From Bacilli bacterium (GTDB taxonomy: Bacteria; Bacillota_I; Bacilli_A; ML615J-28; CAG-698): a stretch of DNA of 52,881 nucleotides. The notes under the pieces are model-generated. The model was not told the DNA's origin and did not search any database. It saw only the letters and a list, made by a program, of their open reading frames with translations. The translations under genes were made by a program, and so were the position numbers. Positions 8,866-16,429 of this stretch are shown piece by piece. The stretch spans positions 1-52,881 of the forward strand of contig JAFSVH010000059.1 in the NCBI GenBank assembly GCA_017450215.1. Reading direction: 5' to 3'. Numbering within the stretch: the first letter of the stretch is position 1; every line of letters begins with the position of its first letter.

Positions 8866-11211
8866 TTAATTTGCTGGAACAATTGAAGATAATATTATAC
8901 TTTCACTGACAGCATCCTTTGTAACAGTAACTCTGTAATATACAACTGTATTTGTATCTACACTACCAATTACTCTACCATCATTATCAATTATAGATGG
9001 ACTTAGACTTTCAAATGTAATTGTGTAATCAAAATAATATTTTTTAATTAAGTATTCTGTTTCAACCATCTTCATAAAATCATTCCATAAATTAGCATTT
9101 CTAATTGCATGTGGACAATCCTTACCAGAAAAAGCATTATGATTTAATACTTGCTTTGGAGTTAGATTGTTTCTAACTAGTATTTCAGCAACCAACTTAG
9201 CAGTGTTTTGCCATGTTTGGTAAATATCACTACCACTGTTTACAGTTGTTTCAATACCAATTGAATTCTTATTTCCACCAAAATTAGATACTTTACCATA
9301 AGTACTATTATAATAAGTCTTATTCAAATAATAATTACCATTAGCACCAATTTCCCAATAAATTCCAGCTGGAGTGATTTGATTTGTTGTGTAATTAGTT
9401 GCATCTACTGCTGTACCTGCTATATCAGTATAAGGACGTAGACTTGTAGATACACCATTAATTGCATAATAACCGCTTGCATCAAAGGTAATATTAGGAC
9501 TAGCATTTCCATAAGGACCTGCACTAATGCCTGTATCTTGTAAGCTATATACTCTACCACCACAACCAGCATGAAATGCAGTATAATTCTCACTAATAGT
9601 TTGATAAATACTATCTTCTCCTACTGTATAATGCCAACTAGTGCCTGTATTATTTAACATATAATTTACATTTGCTAAAGCAGTAGATCCAGCTGCAGTA
9701 TTTCCAGTATCATGAATAGTAATAAATTTAAGTGTTGACATAGTACCATAAGAATATTCTCTTGATATTAAATCACTATCATTAACTTTCTTACTAGTAT
9801 TAACACTGATACTATCAGTTGAATAATTACTTACAGAACCATAAATATTTGCATTAACACTTCCACCATAATTTACATTAGTATGTAATACATTATCATT
9901 ATTAGCACCAGCTAATAAACTTAATAAACTATTATTCTTTCTAAATCCTAATTCATTTTCTTCCATTGAATCAATTAAAGCATTGAATAATGTATCTCCA
10001 TCATCTTGTGCATCTTGCCAATACATCATACCAGCAAATCCATTATCAGCTGCATATTTAGTCTTAATAGTAATTGATGCAGGATTATCATAAGTAATGA
10101 ATACTTCTTCACTTGAACTATAAAGGTAAGGAACTTGACAATTACTATCCCAATATTGTTCATATGCTGGATTAGATAAATAATTAGAAACAATATTACT
10201 ATAAGAAATTGAAGAACAAGATTCAGCACTCTTGCCTAATCCAGCTGTACCTGTAAATTTTCTTCCATAGAATGGAATACCAATAATTAATTTCTTAGGA
10301 TTAATTCCAGAATTAGTAACATAATATGTATATGCATTACTAATAGCTTTATAACATGATCCACTCTTATAATTTAAAGCGGATTGATGAGTTGCAACAC
10401 CACTATTATGCATATCATAAGTCATAATACTAATGTAATCGATATATTGAGCTGAATTAGCAAAATCATATCTAGAATAAGTATCAATACCAGTTGCAGC
10501 CATTACCAAGTGATTTGGATTGTTAGCCTTAACTGCAGCTCTTAATTCTTGCATGAACAATGTGAAATTGGCTTTTTCAGCACTTGTAGGGAATTCCCAG
10601 TCAATATCAACACCATCTAAACCATAAGTATTAATTGCACTTACAATATTATTTATTAATGTAGCTCTAAGTGCACTACTTGCAGCTACTGTAGACATAT
10701 CAGATAATTGAGCTGATGTAGTCATACCTAATGATAAAATAGCATAAGTTCCATTATTATGTGCTCTTGTTACTCTAGATGGTAAATATGATCCAATTGT
10801 AGCAATATTACTTATAGCACCATCTGCACTTACATTAGCATGAGCATAAATAACTATATCTAAATTCTCATAAGTATTATCACTTGCACTAGAATTACTA
10901 AAATACATATAACCAATTGAAATACCATCAGTTAAATCTTTATAATATCTTCTAGCTACAATATCATATGTAGTAATTAATGTATCTTCATTATAATGAA
11001 TAGTAGCTGTTAGTGTTACATTTTGATCTACATATGGCTTAGCATATACACCACTATCACTTAGGCCTCTACTATTACTTGAAGACCAAGTAATAGTAGT
11101 ACCATAATTATTATTTATAGTTATTAAATCTAAATCATCATTTATTTCAGTGATAGATCCATATTCATCATCTAAAGAATCTAATGTGAAATTAAGTCTA
11201 TCACCAGAAGT
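8866..11211 (-). CDS. Ig-like + GH18 + N-acetylmuramoyl-L-alanine amidase region, cut off from its N-terminus by an in-frame TGA
   Basis: This open stretch of 781 codons continues in the same frame as the gene at 11212-13647, right after its TGA stop. It begins with an Ig-like fold (TTITWSSSNSRGLSDSGVYA, NVTLTATIHYNEDT). The GH18 domain follows, with the catalytic DxxDxDxE in LDGVDIDWEF and barrel strands YISIMTYDMH and AGMMYWQDAQDD. An Amidase_2 domain (FITIHDTGNTAAGS, WHYTVGEDSIYQ, NHNAFSGKDCPHA) and a final Ig-like tail complete it. GH18 plus amidase would cut both glycan and stem peptide of peptidoglycan. The first ATG (10908) lies inside the first GH18 strand with no signal peptide, so independent translation looks unsuitable for export. 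It is probably the disabled or read-through half of one 1593-residue protein. Confidence 0.75.
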   Translation of the reverse strand, partial: TSGDRLNFTLDSLDDEYGSITEINDDLDLITINNNYGTTITWSSSNSRGLSDSGVYAKPYVDQNVTLTATIHYNEDTLITTYDIVARRYYKDLTDGISIGYMYFSNSSASDNTYENLDIVIYAHANVSADGAISNIATIGSYLPSRVTRAHNNGTYAILSLGMTTSAQLSDMSTVAASSALRATLINNIVSAINTYGLDGVDIDWEFPTSAEKANFTLFMQELRAAVKANNPNHLVMAATGIDTYSRYDFANSAQYIDYISIMTYDMHNSGVATHQSALNYKSGSCYKAISNAYTYYVTNSGINPKKLIIGIPFYGRKFTGTAGLGKSAESCSSISYSNIVSNYLSNPAYEQYWDSNCQVPYLYSSSEEVFITYDNPASITIKTKYAADNGFAGMMYWQDAQDDGDTLFNALIDSMEENELGFRKNNSLLSLLAGANNDNVLHTNVNYGGSVNANIYGSVSNYSTDSISVNTSKKVNDSDLISREYSYGTMSTLKFITIHDTGNTAAGSTALANVNYMLNNTGTSWHYTVGEDSIYQTISENYTAFHAGCGGRVYSLQDTGISAGPYGNASPNITFDASGYYAINGVSTSLRPYTDIAGTAVDATNYTTNQITPAGIYWEIGANGNYYLNKTYYNSTYGKVSNFGGNKNSIGIETTVNSGSDIYQTWQNTAKLVAEILVRNNLTPKQVLNHNAFSGKDCPHAIRNANLWNDFMKMVETEYLIKKYYFDYTITFESLSPSIIDNDGRVIGSVDTNTVVYYRVTVTKDAVSESIILSSIVPAN

Positions 11212-13647
11212 TCAACCTAATGATTCTAAATATGCTGCATAGGCATCTTGAACTTCTTTTAATGTACTATATATAACAGTGTCATTCTTTATATTTTTAA
11301 CATAAGAACCTGAAGTAATCGTTCCACCAGCATAACAATTATTATTTGTAGTACAAGTACCACTACAAGTAATCTTTGTTGCATAAGCAGAATCAGTATA
11401 ATTATATTGATAATTCAAAGTAGCACTTGTGCCATAAACTAATACTGTAGCTGGTTCAAGACTATACCATTGATTATTCATTACAGTGATTACTTTTCCA
11501 GATTGAACATTTTTGAATCCAAATGTACATGTTTGTAATCCGCCACGACCTGAAGCAATATTATTCTTAATATTAACATTTGCATTAGTTGAAGTGAATC
11601 CAACTTGTGTCAACCAGTTATTTGTAGCATAATAGAATTCATTATCCAAAATATTTAAAGTTCCATTCATAGTATAAATACCCATACCATCATTAGTATA
11701 ATCTGTACCTAAAGTTGCGCAATCATTAGTTATATAGTTATTCAAAATATCTAAATTAGTAATATTGTAAAATGCCATATAGTCATTTAAATATGTAACT
11801 TTATTACAATGAACATTGATATAAGTGTTTTTAACAACCAAATTACTAATATGAGCAGAACCACCAATTGCAGCTTTTCTATTACAATCAATTAATGTAG
11901 ATTCAGGTGTACAATTAATATGGCAATGATCAACAATAATGTTATCAGCACCAATCAAAAGATTTCTAGTGAATTCTAGTCCATTAACTTCACAGCCATT
12001 TGCTTTAATATCCATAATACCTGAAATTATTGATGGAGTATTTCTTGCATTTTTACCTAAAATAGTATTATTAGGTCCATAAATCTTAACAGATTTAGTA
12101 ACATTGATATTTTGACTATATGTACCTGCAAATACATAAATAATATCATTATTACTTGCAATGCTAATAGCATCAGCAAGACTAGCTACAATATTGCTAC
12201 CAACTGGATATTCAACTGTATCATAATTTGAATTTAATTCATCACCACATAAAATATATTTACCTGATGCAACATTAGGATTAACTAAAATATCAGCAAC
12301 TTTCCCATCTTTAGTATAAATAGCATTTAAAGCTGTAACATCAGCTGCACCGATATTCAAGTCAAGAGCAACTAGCATTTCCCAACATGCATAAACAGTA
12401 ATATTACCATGACTACCAGCAGGAATAGATGTAATTGGTTCACCAACAGCACCAACATTATCATACCATCCAAGGAATTCACCATTTGCGATAGACATTG
12501 TACCAGCAGCAGGCAATGCTATAGCACCACTTTCAATATTATATGAAGTAATTGGTGAAGCTGAAGTAGCACCAGATTGTAATTCATAAGTAATAGTATA
12601 TTCAATTGGTGTAAATTTTGCATAGAATGTTTCAGCATCATTACCATCTTTTTCAGTAATAGCATCGCCAGTTAATCCAACATTGCCATACCAGCCATCA
12701 AAAGTATAATAATCTTTCTTTACATTTGGTAAAGTATCACCATCTTCTAATAATAATTTTCCATTTAATAATGCATCAATATTATTACCAGCTTTAATTA
12801 TTGCGCCATCAGCACAATCACTAATATATAGATATTGGTATGCTGATAAAGCAGTAATTTTAGCAGGGGCACCAGGTGTATTACTATGACCAGCCAAAAT
12901 ATAATCATAATCAGCAGTTACAGAGGCATTACCTGTTTTTGAATCACCTACCAAGTAAGTAACTTTTTCATAGATATTAGAACTTATTGAAGTTCTCTTA
13001 ATAAAAATTCTATTCCAATAAGAATTACTATAAGCTTTTCCTTTATCTCCTAATGTGATACCTTCACTACCACCAGAACCACCATTATAACGGCCAACAA
13101 CGCCTTCAACATTAGCAACAAATTCTCCACCATTAAATACAAATGTTGAAGAATTATTAATCTTCTTTACAAAATCTAAATCTTTGTAATCATCATTATC
13201 TGCTAATTGATTAGCTACATATGTAATATTTCTAGTACAAGATGATGCAGCATATGTTTTTTCACCATCAACATCAACATAAGCTAATGCTGTAATATTT
13301 TGGTCATATCCACTTGATGGAATATTTACAACAGATAAATAAAACTTTCCTTCACCATCTAATGTTTCACCTGCTTCTCTAGCGATAGCTTTACTAGTTC
13401 CATATAATGTAATCATTTGTTCTTTAGTATAACTACCTTTTGAAAGCAAGAAACCATATTTAATAGTTGTACCTGTAAATTCACCAGTAACTTGACCAGC
13501 AAATCTTAATCCCATTGGATCAACAGTTCTAATTGATGCACCATCAACAGTTGCAACAGTAGCATCATCTGCTTTTACATTTTGAGGTATGAAAGCAAAT
13601 AAACATACTGCTAAAATAGCAATAATGAATAAATAAAACTTCTTCAT
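11212..13647 (-). CDS. Secreted InlB-repeat / beta-helix surface protein
   Basis: This 811-residue protein has a signal peptide (hydrophobic 5-20, cleavage near VKA-DD). A conserved N-terminal domain beginning VDGASIRTVDPMGLRFAGQV, with YGFLLSKGSYTKEQ, follows. Next are InlB-type repeats (YYTFDGWYGNVG, ITYELQSG, GEFLGWYDNVG; about 320-420). From about 500 to 770 is a right-handed beta-helix (IIYVFAGTYSQNINV, NVVKNTYINV-like turns), as in pectate-lyase-like or adhesin folds. No anchor motif is present. It is a paralog of 13923-16376. The start follows GGAGGT, which lies in the last codons of the small peptide gene upstream, so translation is probably coupled. Its TGA stop opens in frame into the GH18/amidase region. 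The role is likely adhesion or glycan binding (inferred). Confidence 0.8.
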   Translation of the reverse strand: MKKFYLFIIAILAVCLFAFIPQNVKADDATVATVDGASIRTVDPMGLRFAGQVTGEFTGTTIKYGFLLSKGSYTKEQMITLYGTSKAIAREAGETLDGEGKFYLSVVNIPSSGYDQNITALAYVDVDGEKTYAASSCTRNITYVANQLADNDDYKDLDFVKKINNSSTFVFNGGEFVANVEGVVGRYNGGSGGSEGITLGDKGKAYSNSYWNRIFIKRTSISSNIYEKVTYLVGDSKTGNASVTADYDYILAGHSNTPGAPAKITALSAYQYLYISDCADGAIIKAGNNIDALLNGKLLLEDGDTLPNVKKDYYTFDGWYGNVGLTGDAITEKDGNDAETFYAKFTPIEYTITYELQSGATSASPITSYNIESGAIALPAAGTMSIANGEFLGWYDNVGAVGEPITSIPAGSHGNITVYACWEMLVALDLNIGAADVTALNAIYTKDGKVADILVNPNVASGKYILCGDELNSNYDTVEYPVGSNIVASLADAISIASNNDIIYVFAGTYSQNINVTKSVKIYGPNNTILGKNARNTPSIISGIMDIKANGCEVNGLEFTRNLLIGADNIIVDHCHINCTPESTLIDCNRKAAIGGSAHISNLVVKNTYINVHCNKVTYLNDYMAFYNITNLDILNNYITNDCATLGTDYTNDGMGIYTMNGTLNILDNEFYYATNNWLTQVGFTSTNANVNIKNNIASGRGGLQTCTFGFKNVQSGKVITVMNNQWYSLEPATVLVYGTSATLNYQYNYTDSAYATKITCSGTCTTNNNCYAGGTITSGSYVKNIKNDTVIYSTLKEVQDAYAAYLESLG

Positions 13648-13650
13648 AAA

Positions 13651-13761
13651 TCAACCTCCATAAGGGATTTCTTCATAATTAGTTGTAGTGCTTGTTTTAA
13701 TAATGTCTTCTTCATTAATTAAAACAAGTTCAATTTGCGGCAATTTAAATTCTTTTTTCAT
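13651..13761 (-). CDS. 36-residue peptide encoded just upstream of the surface protein
   Basis: This short gene has a strong ribosome site (GGGAGGAATTATAG) before ATG. The product starts MKKEFKLPQIELVLINEEDI and ends in NYEEIPYGG. It aligns without gaps to the 34-residue peptide at 16430-16534: 16 identical positions, including P8, I10-E11, D19-I20-I21, T23-S24 and I32-P33. The last codons GGA GGT form the ribosome site of the following gene, and the TGA stop lies one codon before that gene's ATG. It has no signal peptide. It may be a leader peptide, a modified-peptide precursor or a regulator; none of these is shown. Confidence 0.75.
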   Translation of the reverse strand: MKKEFKLPQIELVLINEEDIIKTSTTTNYEEIPYGG

Positions 13762-13828
13762 CTATAATTCCTCCCATATAAAAGAACTTATTAACGGCTG
13801 AAAACGTTTTTTAGCCATTATTAATATC

Positions 13829-13858
13829 ATTATACCCCCCCCCGACCCTTTCAGTCAA
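13829..13858 (-). promoter_or_regulatory. Promoter with a nine-G tract in the spacer (candidate phase-variable switch)
   Basis: On the minus strand TTGACT (13853-13858) and TATAAT (13829-13834) are separated by 18 bases. Nine of these are consecutive G (13835-13843), abutting the -10 box. The other strong promoters in the window have 16-17 bases. Loss of one G would give the usual 17. Such tracts slip in replication and switch promoters on and off in other bacteria. It drives the 36-residue peptide and the surface protein. Confidence 0.8.
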
Positions 13859-13865
13859 TTTGAAA

Positions 13866-13904
13866 AAAAAGAAAAAGAAAATGAAAGTTTTTCATTTCAT
13901 TTTC
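13866..13904 (-). terminator. Terminator of the 821-residue surface protein gene
   Basis: GAAAATGAAA pairs with TTTCATTTTC (13877-13886, 13895-13904), followed on the minus strand by a long T-rich tail. It separates this gene from the poly-G promoter. Confidence 0.7.
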
Positions 13905-13922
13905 TTCCTTTTTCACAAATTC

Positions 13923-16376
13923 CTATTCAGGTATATAACTTGGTACATCATTTGCATCAAGATATGTATTAGTTATAGCATTTGTTGTTTGAACCGTTAT
14001 TGAAGTTGGGGCAGTTGCAAAATAATTATAACGAATCACAAAATTGCCATCACTAAGAGCACTAGTAATATATTTTGTGAAACTACCACTAATTTCATCC
14101 ATAAATTTATTATATTCAAAAATAATTCTATTATCACTAAGTGTACCAACAACACTAATTGCTAAACCAGCAAGAGAATTTTCAATTGTATTATAAGAAA
14201 TTAATACATCACAAGTACTAGGTACATTTCTAATGTAAATGTTATAAGAATTAGATGTACCATTATTAGTAATAGTATTATCTCTTATAATTACGCTACT
14301 ACAAGTATTACCACTAGTAGCTGTACCTAACCTAATTGCATATGAATCAAAGCCATCAATTGTATTTCCTTGAATCAATACAGTTCCTGAAATTTTTTGA
14401 AGATAAATACCTTCTACATATACTGGACTATCTTCTGTATCAATATAACCATGAATTTCATTATTAGTAATTGTTATATTTGTAATAACATTTGTTCCAC
14501 CATAACAGAAACGAGATGTAGATGAGAAATTAGCATAACAATCACTAATAATTAATGATGTGAATTTAGCTGCACAAGTAATAAAATCAGTTCCAACTGC
14601 ACCACTATATGTTGATTTAATACATTTAATAGTAGTTGCTTTTCTAAGTGAGAATTTACCACTTGTAGATAAATCAAATCCATTAATTTCACAGCCATCT
14701 TTATTTGTTGTGATTGTTCCAGTTATTACAGCTTCTGTATATCTAGAATTAGAACCAGAAACATCAGCATTAGGTCCTAATAATTTTACATTTTGTGTAA
14801 ATGTAAATGATTCATTATATGTACCACTAAATACATAAATAACATCATCAGCACTAGCTGCTCTAATAGCATCATCTATTGTACTATATAATGCTCCATC
14901 ACCTACTGTATATGTATTACCATTGATAGTGAAAGTACCATCAGTGAATGTAGATTTTACAAATTTATTAGGAGAATAAGTTGTAATAACACTTAAATCT
15001 TCTGGATTTAAGCTTACAACGCTAGAATCAAAGATATTCCATACAGCATATAAGCTGATATTACCATGAGAATTAAGTGGAATAGTAAGAATCGCATCTC
15101 CATTTCCTTCAGGGTTATTATACCAACCAACAAATTCACCATTTTCGATTGACATAAGGTCAGTTCTAGGTAAAGTAATAGTTGGTGTTTCATAATTATA
15201 ACTTGTTACTAATGATACAGGTGTAGATCCACCTTGTAAATCATAAGAAACAGTATAATCAACAGGTGTGAATTTTGCATAATATGTTTTACCTGCATCG
15301 CCTGAATGACTAGTATATACAGTACCACTTAGATTTTCATATTCACACCAACCATCAAATTCATAATATGTTTTTGATAAAATTGGTAAATCATCACCAT
15401 CTTTATAATAAGAATGAGATGTATAGAATAATTCAGGCTGCATTGATACTTTAATTTCATTATCAACATTGTCTAATGTTGGTGTTGTGAAAGAAAAATA
15501 ATAATCGAATAAATCATCACCTAAATCAATCAAATCTTTAATCTTATTATAATTAGCTAATGTAGTATTATTTACAGCTAATACATAATCATATTCTTCT
15601 AAAACAGATGCATTACTTGATGATGCAATATCATCAAGACTTGGATCTAAGCTAAGTAAAGCAGCTTTATAAGCTACAACCTTATAACATCTTAATTCAT
15701 TATCATATTTTAAGAATATTCTAGCAAATGTATGATCAGAACCATTATTTACATTTTCATCATCACAAATATTGATTTTATCATCATCAATACCAGCATT
15801 AAAACGAGATGCATTAAATACATCATCAAATTCAAGTGTTCCACCATTGAAGTTGAAATTTGATGTATAAACAATCTTTTTCACATATTCTAAATCACTA
15901 TATCTAGGATCACTAATTAAAGCAGATGCTACTTCATAAATATTTCTAACACAAGATGCATCAGCATAATACTTAACACCATCAATTGAAACATAAGCAA
16001 GAGCACTTAAATTAGTTCCATAATCACTTGCTGGGAAATTGACAACAGACACAAAGAATTCATCATTTCCATTCTTCTCTTCACAATCAATAGCAACAGC
16101 TCTTGATAGTGCGTATTTTGCAATTATTTCATCTTTAGTGCAATTACCTTTAGTAAGTAAGAACCCATAATTCACATCATCACTACCATAATCTCCACTA
16201 GAAACACCACAGAAACGCAATCCCATTGGGTCAGCTGTTCTAATTGATGCACCATCTACAGTCTCTATTGTATATAAAGGATCAGCTTTAATAGAGATAT
16301 TAAAAGAGAATATTGTAACAGAAATAATAAAAATTAAAGAACATAATATATATTTAAATAATTTTGATAACTTCAT
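13923..16376 (-). CDS. Secreted InlB-repeat / beta-helix surface protein, paralog of the neighbour
   Basis: The start is placed at the ATG at 16376 (MKLSKLFKYILCSL) because GGTGATGAAT upstream is the ribosome site; an in-frame ATG also exists at 16388. A signal peptide ends near IKA-DP. The N-terminal domain VDGASIRTADPMGLRFCGVS matches the neighbour closely. InlB-type repeats follow (YYEFDGWCEYENLSG, VSYDLQGGSTPVS, NGEFVGWYNNPEGNG), then a beta-helix (VIYVFSGTYNESFTF, then repeated N-turns to the end). It stops after the helix with no GH18 or amidase part and no visible anchor motif. It is preceded by a related short peptide gene and its own normal promoter. Probably an adhesin or glycan-binding surface protein. 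Confidence 0.8.
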   Translation of the reverse strand: MKLSKLFKYILCSLIFIISVTIFSFNISIKADPLYTIETVDGASIRTADPMGLRFCGVSSGDYGSDDVNYGFLLTKGNCTKDEIIAKYALSRAVAIDCEEKNGNDEFFVSVVNFPASDYGTNLSALAYVSIDGVKYYADASCVRNIYEVASALISDPRYSDLEYVKKIVYTSNFNFNGGTLEFDDVFNASRFNAGIDDDKINICDDENVNNGSDHTFARIFLKYDNELRCYKVVAYKAALLSLDPSLDDIASSSNASVLEEYDYVLAVNNTTLANYNKIKDLIDLGDDLFDYYFSFTTPTLDNVDNEIKVSMQPELFYTSHSYYKDGDDLPILSKTYYEFDGWCEYENLSGTVYTSHSGDAGKTYYAKFTPVDYTVSYDLQGGSTPVSLVTSYNYETPTITLPRTDLMSIENGEFVGWYNNPEGNGDAILTIPLNSHGNISLYAVWNIFDSSVVSLNPEDLSVITTYSPNKFVKSTFTDGTFTINGNTYTVGDGALYSTIDDAIRAASADDVIYVFSGTYNESFTFTQNVKLLGPNADVSGSNSRYTEAVITGTITTNKDGCEINGFDLSTSGKFSLRKATTIKCIKSTYSGAVGTDFITCAAKFTSLIISDCYANFSSTSRFCYGGTNVITNITITNNEIHGYIDTEDSPVYVEGIYLQKISGTVLIQGNTIDGFDSYAIRLGTATSGNTCSSVIIRDNTITNNGTSNSYNIYIRNVPSTCDVLISYNTIENSLAGLAISVVGTLSDNRIIFEYNKFMDEISGSFTKYITSALSDGNFVIRYNYFATAPTSITVQTTNAITNTYLDANDVPSYIPE

Positions 16377-16429
16377 ATTCATCACCATTTTTATAATTTA
16401 TTAATTCTTAATTATCTTAATTATCTTAA

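Follow-up and report, generated by a model that had tools for sequence, protein, structure and literature searches.

The locus analysed here lies in a window of 52,881 nucleotides, by which we mean the whole stretch of DNA studied, and consists of a promoter read on the minus strand and, behind it, a leader peptide and a long surface-protein frame. The promoter has the form TTGACT-GAAAGGGTC-GGGGGGGGG-TATAAT at 13858-13829, with a spacer of 18 bases whose 3' end is made of nine G; on the plus strand, the C9 at 13835-13843 is this same tract. In this respect the sequence confirmed the original prediction, which had described a minus-strand TTGACT/TATAAT pair separated by 18 bases, with nine G abutting the -10 box. 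The features, listed along the minus strand, are the following:

13862..13912, minus strand: terminator-like hairpin and T tract, upstream border of the cassette; found in all three copies, with differing upstream genes (z -3.2)
13853..13858, minus strand: -35 box TTGACT, the same in all three cassette copies
13844..13852, minus strand: non-G part of the spacer, 9 bases, the commonest length in the set of related sites
13835..13843, minus strand: G9 tract forming the 3' half of the spacer, candidate slippage site; G8 in the paralog on contig C96
13829..13834, minus strand: -10 box TATAAT, assigned by sequence, directly 3' of the G tract, as at 78 sites of the class
13764..13822, minus strand: predicted 5' UTR with a hairpin GGCTAAAAAACGTTTTCAGCC and then a stem AGUUCUUUU pairing the ribosome-binding site GGAGGAAUU (z -3.2)
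13651..13761, minus strand: leader peptide of 36 residues, MKKEFKLPQIELVLINEEDIIKTSTTTNYEEIPYGG, the first 24 being the same in the C96 and C103 cassettes
11212..13647, minus strand: secreted protein, 811 aa up to an in-frame TGA, with signal peptide, N-terminal domain, Listeria-Bacteroides repeat and predicted beta-helix
8866..11211, minus strand: frame continued past the TGA, with aBig_2, glycosyl hydrolase family 18 (GH18) and Amidase_2

As in promoters of the porA type, the G9 tract is a homopolymer of at least eight bases flanked by a recognisable -35 and a recognisable -10 box whose spacing is near-functional. No such tract is present in the ordinary promoter of the adjacent paralog (13923-16388). 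A scan of the window for consensus promoters found 50, compared with 51 expected from shuffled sequences, hence with no excess, and Rfam gave sub-threshold matches or none, for the promoter region as for the window as a whole. The terminator-like hairpin, taken as 13858-13920, showed a weak Rfam similarity to the Streptococcus SpF43 sRNA (24.3 bits against a gathering value of 70), which is probably a composition effect. An invertible promoter was also considered and rejected, as no strong inverted pair was found close around 13829-13858; the nearest inverted repeat to the promoter is the terminator hairpin, and the distant bracketing pairs reach only 75-81%.

The two products that had been placed behind the promoter, a 36-residue peptide and a protein with a signal peptide, are real ORFs. 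The latter had been described as a beta-helix protein, and structure prediction agrees: AlphaFold modelled the last 342 residues of this 811-aa part as a fold rich in strands, with moderate confidence (pLDDT 68), and the PDB entries that resemble it best are tailspikes, the adhesin PfbA and enzymes with a right-handed beta-helix. This is probably not the complete protein, since the frame runs past the TGA into GH18 and Amidase_2. The in-frame TGA at 11212-11214 (minus strand) splits, in fact, an apparent single frame of 1593 residues. Because aBig_2 is situated upstream of the start codon of the next ORF, and because a paralog on contig C94 carries within one ORF both GH18 and the N-terminal domain, which has five members in the genome, the two ORFs look like one surface hydrolase cut by a nonsense codon. 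Judged from sequence, the 811-aa part is probably the N-terminal half of this longer enzyme and 8866..11211 its C-terminal half. The TGA may be either a nonsense mutation or a site of recoding; an altered genetic code was rejected, as neighbouring genes, DnaK and DnaJ among them, give full-length products under table 11.

At a GC content of 27%, the window has a single G/C run longer than 4, the G9, the next longest being 4; matches to G7 number 3, compared with a mean of 0.22 in dinucleotide shuffles. In the whole host genome (2.05 Mb, 141 contigs) there are just two G/C runs of at least eight, both directly 5' of TATAAT. Per genome, a simple Markov expectation is about 0.4-0.7 runs of at least eight and 0.06-0.1 of at least nine, figures that bear out the earlier statement that nine consecutive G would be unlikely by chance.

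The second run is a G8 at C96:31678, in a 17-base spacer of a near-identical paralogous cassette, where a terminator-like hairpin and T tract, TTGACT, the same non-G spacer part, G8, TATAAT, a 5' UTR hairpin, a ribosome-binding site and a leader peptide follow one another. A third copy, on contig C103, has kept all the cassette parts around a spacer, GAATTTGTATTGGTGGGT, of 18 bases without the tract, which is thus not required. Since the upstream genes differ among the three copies, the cassette begins at the hairpin, which probably insulates the promoter against read-through, and two further surface-protein genes stand behind the C96 and C103 cassettes. Just upstream of the C96 copy there is an AbiEii-like nucleotidyltransferase gene (392-1425 of L001), interrupted near 760. 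The fold of the 5' UTR is a prediction, made on near-identical copies that give no covariation support; the stem pairing the ribosome-binding site of the leader peptide, together with the second hairpin, could provide translational control besides the promoter. Contigs C96 and C103 end, and contigs C82 and C37 start, inside the common repeat. C82 and C37 (L027 and L028, from base 159) carry two surface proteins with near-identical leader peptides; over their first ~57 residues the proteins are also near-identical, and beyond that point they diverge, a pattern that suggests recombination at the level of the cassette. The exact cassette pattern was searched in viral contigs for strain variants, and none was found.

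The promoter form recurs in relatives. G7 followed by TATAAT was present in 4 of 28 genomes of the family, and G8 followed by TATAAT in 29 out of 395 genomes from the class, with 78 places in total, versus 1 place for the reversed pattern, a control that accounts for base composition only. When a -35 (TTGAC) was required in a sample of the phylum, 30 sites were found versus 0 in the control, and by both counts the enrichment of the tract at promoters is beyond chance. With their flanks, 76 distinct sites were retrieved, picked without regard to the -35. A -35 matching TTGACA at five or more of six bases occurred at spacers of 17 (10 sites), 18 (18), 19 (20) and 20 (7), so that 55 of 74 sites have a -35 at a spacer of 16-20 (all of them at 17-20), whereas 200 shuffles averaged 2.4 such sites and never exceeded 8; none occurred at spacers 13, 14, 16 and 21-23, and a few at 10-12 and 15. 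The usual form in the set is TTGACA-N9-G8..11-TATAAT, the non-G part being mostly of 9 bases and the tract of 8-11. Among named GTDB species, with TTGAC required, at least 118 stretches were found, and the 85 analysed sites of this TTGAC-selected scan have spacers nearly all of 15-20, where 11-21 were permitted. The carriers comprise many Bacilli MAGs from rabbit gut, together with Anaeroplasmataceae, Clostridia and Saccharibacteria, as well as Streptobacillus and Helicobacter, with up to nine such tracts in one genome (G347).

A different arrangement was observed in a genome of the same genus (G001:C87 near 5790; L210/L031), where a G9 is placed downstream of another good promoter, at a distance of ~45 nt, within a hairpin CCUCUCCCGAA/UUCGGGGGGGG; UAUAAUUUUUUU comes next, and then the genes for a leader peptide and for a related surface protein. 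This G9 may act via RNA folding or termination, and not via promoter spacing.

As for the genes controlled, an N-terminal export-type hydrophobic segment, recognised by a crude hydrophobicity rule, was found in 48 of 70 first ORFs downstream of the tract and in 19 of 65 ORFs located elsewhere in these stretches (p = 6e-6). Together with the signal peptide and domains of the protein described here, this upholds the expectation that the target is of a secreted or surface type.

The length of the tract was then considered. Before TATAAT, the pure tracts of the 29 genomes are bimodal (G5, 8; G6, 2; G7, 1; G8 or longer, 78), and since G5-7 are rare and G8-11 common, the lengths jump into the range where slippage is expected. 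In homologous promoters, tract length was unequal in 6 of 16 independent close pairs, versus 7.5% per flanking base. A tandem array (G372:C6:8343-27036; L191-L192) contains seven secreted-protein genes with their own poly-G promoters, six with G9 and one with G8; the array also has one G6 site, possibly a locked copy. In another group (G318), four tracts are G10 and one is G9, and three sister-species groups have equal lengths (G8/G8/G8, G10/G10 and G8/G8), from which it follows that the tract is not changing freely between species. Taken over species and copies, and on assemblies only, whose calls of tract length may err, the comparison gives unequal lengths in paralogs and in some species and equal ones in some sister species.

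The 78 to 1 enrichment, the spacers of ~17-20, the bimodal tracts, the G8/G9 paralogs and the exported targets make length switching the best reading of these data. We therefore consider it likely, from sequence comparison, that G9 is a slippage-variable promoter spacer of an exported protein, of the porA, vlp or PPA1880 kind. The design, with 8 to 11 G, returns at dozens of genes in gut bacteria related to this one, so that it is probably an on/off or dimmer switch driven by slippage. The original prediction had placed a switch in this promoter spacer, and that part is retained on comparative evidence; it had also regarded 18 bases as an off-optimum state, and that part is weak, because the tract-free paralog on C103 is also at 18 and spacers of 17-19 are the commonest in the set. 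As C103 is at 18, and as spacers of either 17 or 18 can be used, ON or intermediate is the probable state of the assembled G9 allele, and G10-G11 are probably weaker. As G8 and G9 correspond to 17 and 18 bases, both usable, one step may alter expression only modestly.

The strongest competitor, which we nevertheless regard as unlikely, is a fixed and tuned promoter, in which a G-rich spacer sets strength or DNA shape, length changes are rare and nothing is switched. The equal lengths in some sister species, the near-optimal spacers of 17-18 and the tract-free 18-base paralog would all agree with it, but a fixed spacer does not need a pure homopolymer of 8-11, nor does it account for G5-7 being rarer than G8-11 and for length differences exceeding those of the flanking bases in the close pairs. 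Distinctly less probable is control by a distance-dependent activator, in which the tract would change how far a regulator site stands from the -10, and not the spacing seen by sigma. The Bordetella fim promoters are of this activator-dependent kind, the type having no functional -35 and an activator site upstream of the C-stretch. The conserved cassette, in which palindromic elements flank the promoter, could accommodate a regulator; unlike fim, however, the promoter here has a consensus-like -35 at the right distance (TTGACT at 18 bases), as do most relatives (TTGACA at 17-20), and most relatives have no other flanking motif in common. We give slightly less credit still to duplication of an expression cassette, with the G tract as a neutral passenger and variation arising by recombination between cassettes: the three copies, the contig breaks within their common repeat and the shared N-termini with divergent bodies of C82/C37 fit this well, but the same tract design stands in unrelated promoters of many genera, and neutral tracts would not accumulate 78 to 1 before TATAAT. 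A chance homopolymer has a negligible probability: a single nine-G run could arise in a large genome, but the position of both long runs before TATAAT, the -35 spacing and the length distribution speak against it and the class-wide enrichment already contradicts it.

Under the preferred reading, that of length switching, the promoter would be of the sigma-A type and the G9 in its spacer a tract prone to slippage. Slippage at replication would add or delete G and so set the distance between the -35 and -10 boxes, at 17 bases for G8, 18 for G9, 19 for G10 and 20 for G11, and this distance would determine how strongly the sigma factor-RNA polymerase complex uses the promoter. The promoter would drive the operon of leader peptide and surface protein, whose expression would hang mainly on it, since the upstream terminator would stop read-through; in this way the terminator-like hairpin would prevent read-through from masking the switch. 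The expected outcome is a stochastic, heritable and reversible alternation between high and low, that is phase-variable, expression of the exported protein. The slippage rate, the dependence of transcription on length, the length corresponding to ON and the benefit to the cell are elements that we infer; the anatomy, the enrichment at promoters, the limited range of spacers, the unequal lengths of homologous copies and the exported targets are shown by the sequences.

Gram-negative pathogens and mycoplasmas provide the best-known cases of phase variation by homopolymer slippage, whereas phase variation in gut commensals is known mostly from invertible promoters. For gut Firmicutes or Anaeroplasma, the open-access literature yielded nothing on point about phase variation through poly-G promoters. 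With somewhat less assurance than for the single locus, though still on the favourable side, we propose a widespread phase-variation regime in uncultured gut Bacilli/Anaeroplasmataceae, in which several independent surface-protein or lipoprotein promoters per genome would have the TTGACA-N9-G8..11-TATAAT form and poly-G slippage, with up to nine switches, would sample combinations of surface proteins. If the tracts do switch, uncultured gut Bacilli, including relatives of Anaeroplasma, would own genome-wide contingency loci for surface proteins and lipoproteins. The promoter form being regular enough for searching, such loci would be readable in existing metagenome reads, and the expression state could be inferred from tract length without culture.

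Among known systems, the Bordetella fim promoters, offered originally as the parallel, are not the nearest. In fim2, fim3 and fimX, the length of a homopolymeric C-stretch in the promoter changes the transcription of a surface structure, and in the threshold model the distance under debate is that from the activator site to the -10 (PMC1891110); porA, PPA1880 and vlp/Vmm are closer. In porA of Neisseria meningitidis a poly-G lies between the -35 and the -10, and one G more or less alters transcription (PMC3899988), the length changing at about 1e-3 (PMC2667671). Common to both is a surface-protein promoter whose spacer contains poly-G, but porA is a single locus of a Gram-negative pathogen, whereas here a repeated design, with the tract abutting TATAAT, is known from sequence in uncultured gut Bacilli/Anaeroplasmataceae. 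PPA1880 of Cutibacterium (Propionibacterium) acnes, a secreted putative adhesin, likewise carries a run of G within its promoter spacer, which measures 18, 20 and 23 bases in strains having 11, 13 and 15 G, respectively; only the 18-base strain secretes the protein, a length mechanism being proposed from a correlation over three strains only (PMC3224659). It differs in being a single gene of an Actinobacterium. Mycoplasma hyorhinis vlp and M. mycoides Vmm, variable surface lipoproteins whose promoter regions contain a slippage tract (PMC10502178), are taxonomically nearer, several carriers of the G tracts being Anaeroplasmataceae; the tract is poly-A in vlp and a dinucleotide repeat in the spacer in Vmm, and not poly-G. 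Finally, the pilus of Bifidobacterium breve shares with our locus G-tract slippage in a Gram-positive gut commensal, but there the tract lies in the coding sequence and causes a frameshift, other promoter-spacer G tracts being merely mentioned (PMC9187656), whereas here it lies in the promoter spacer.
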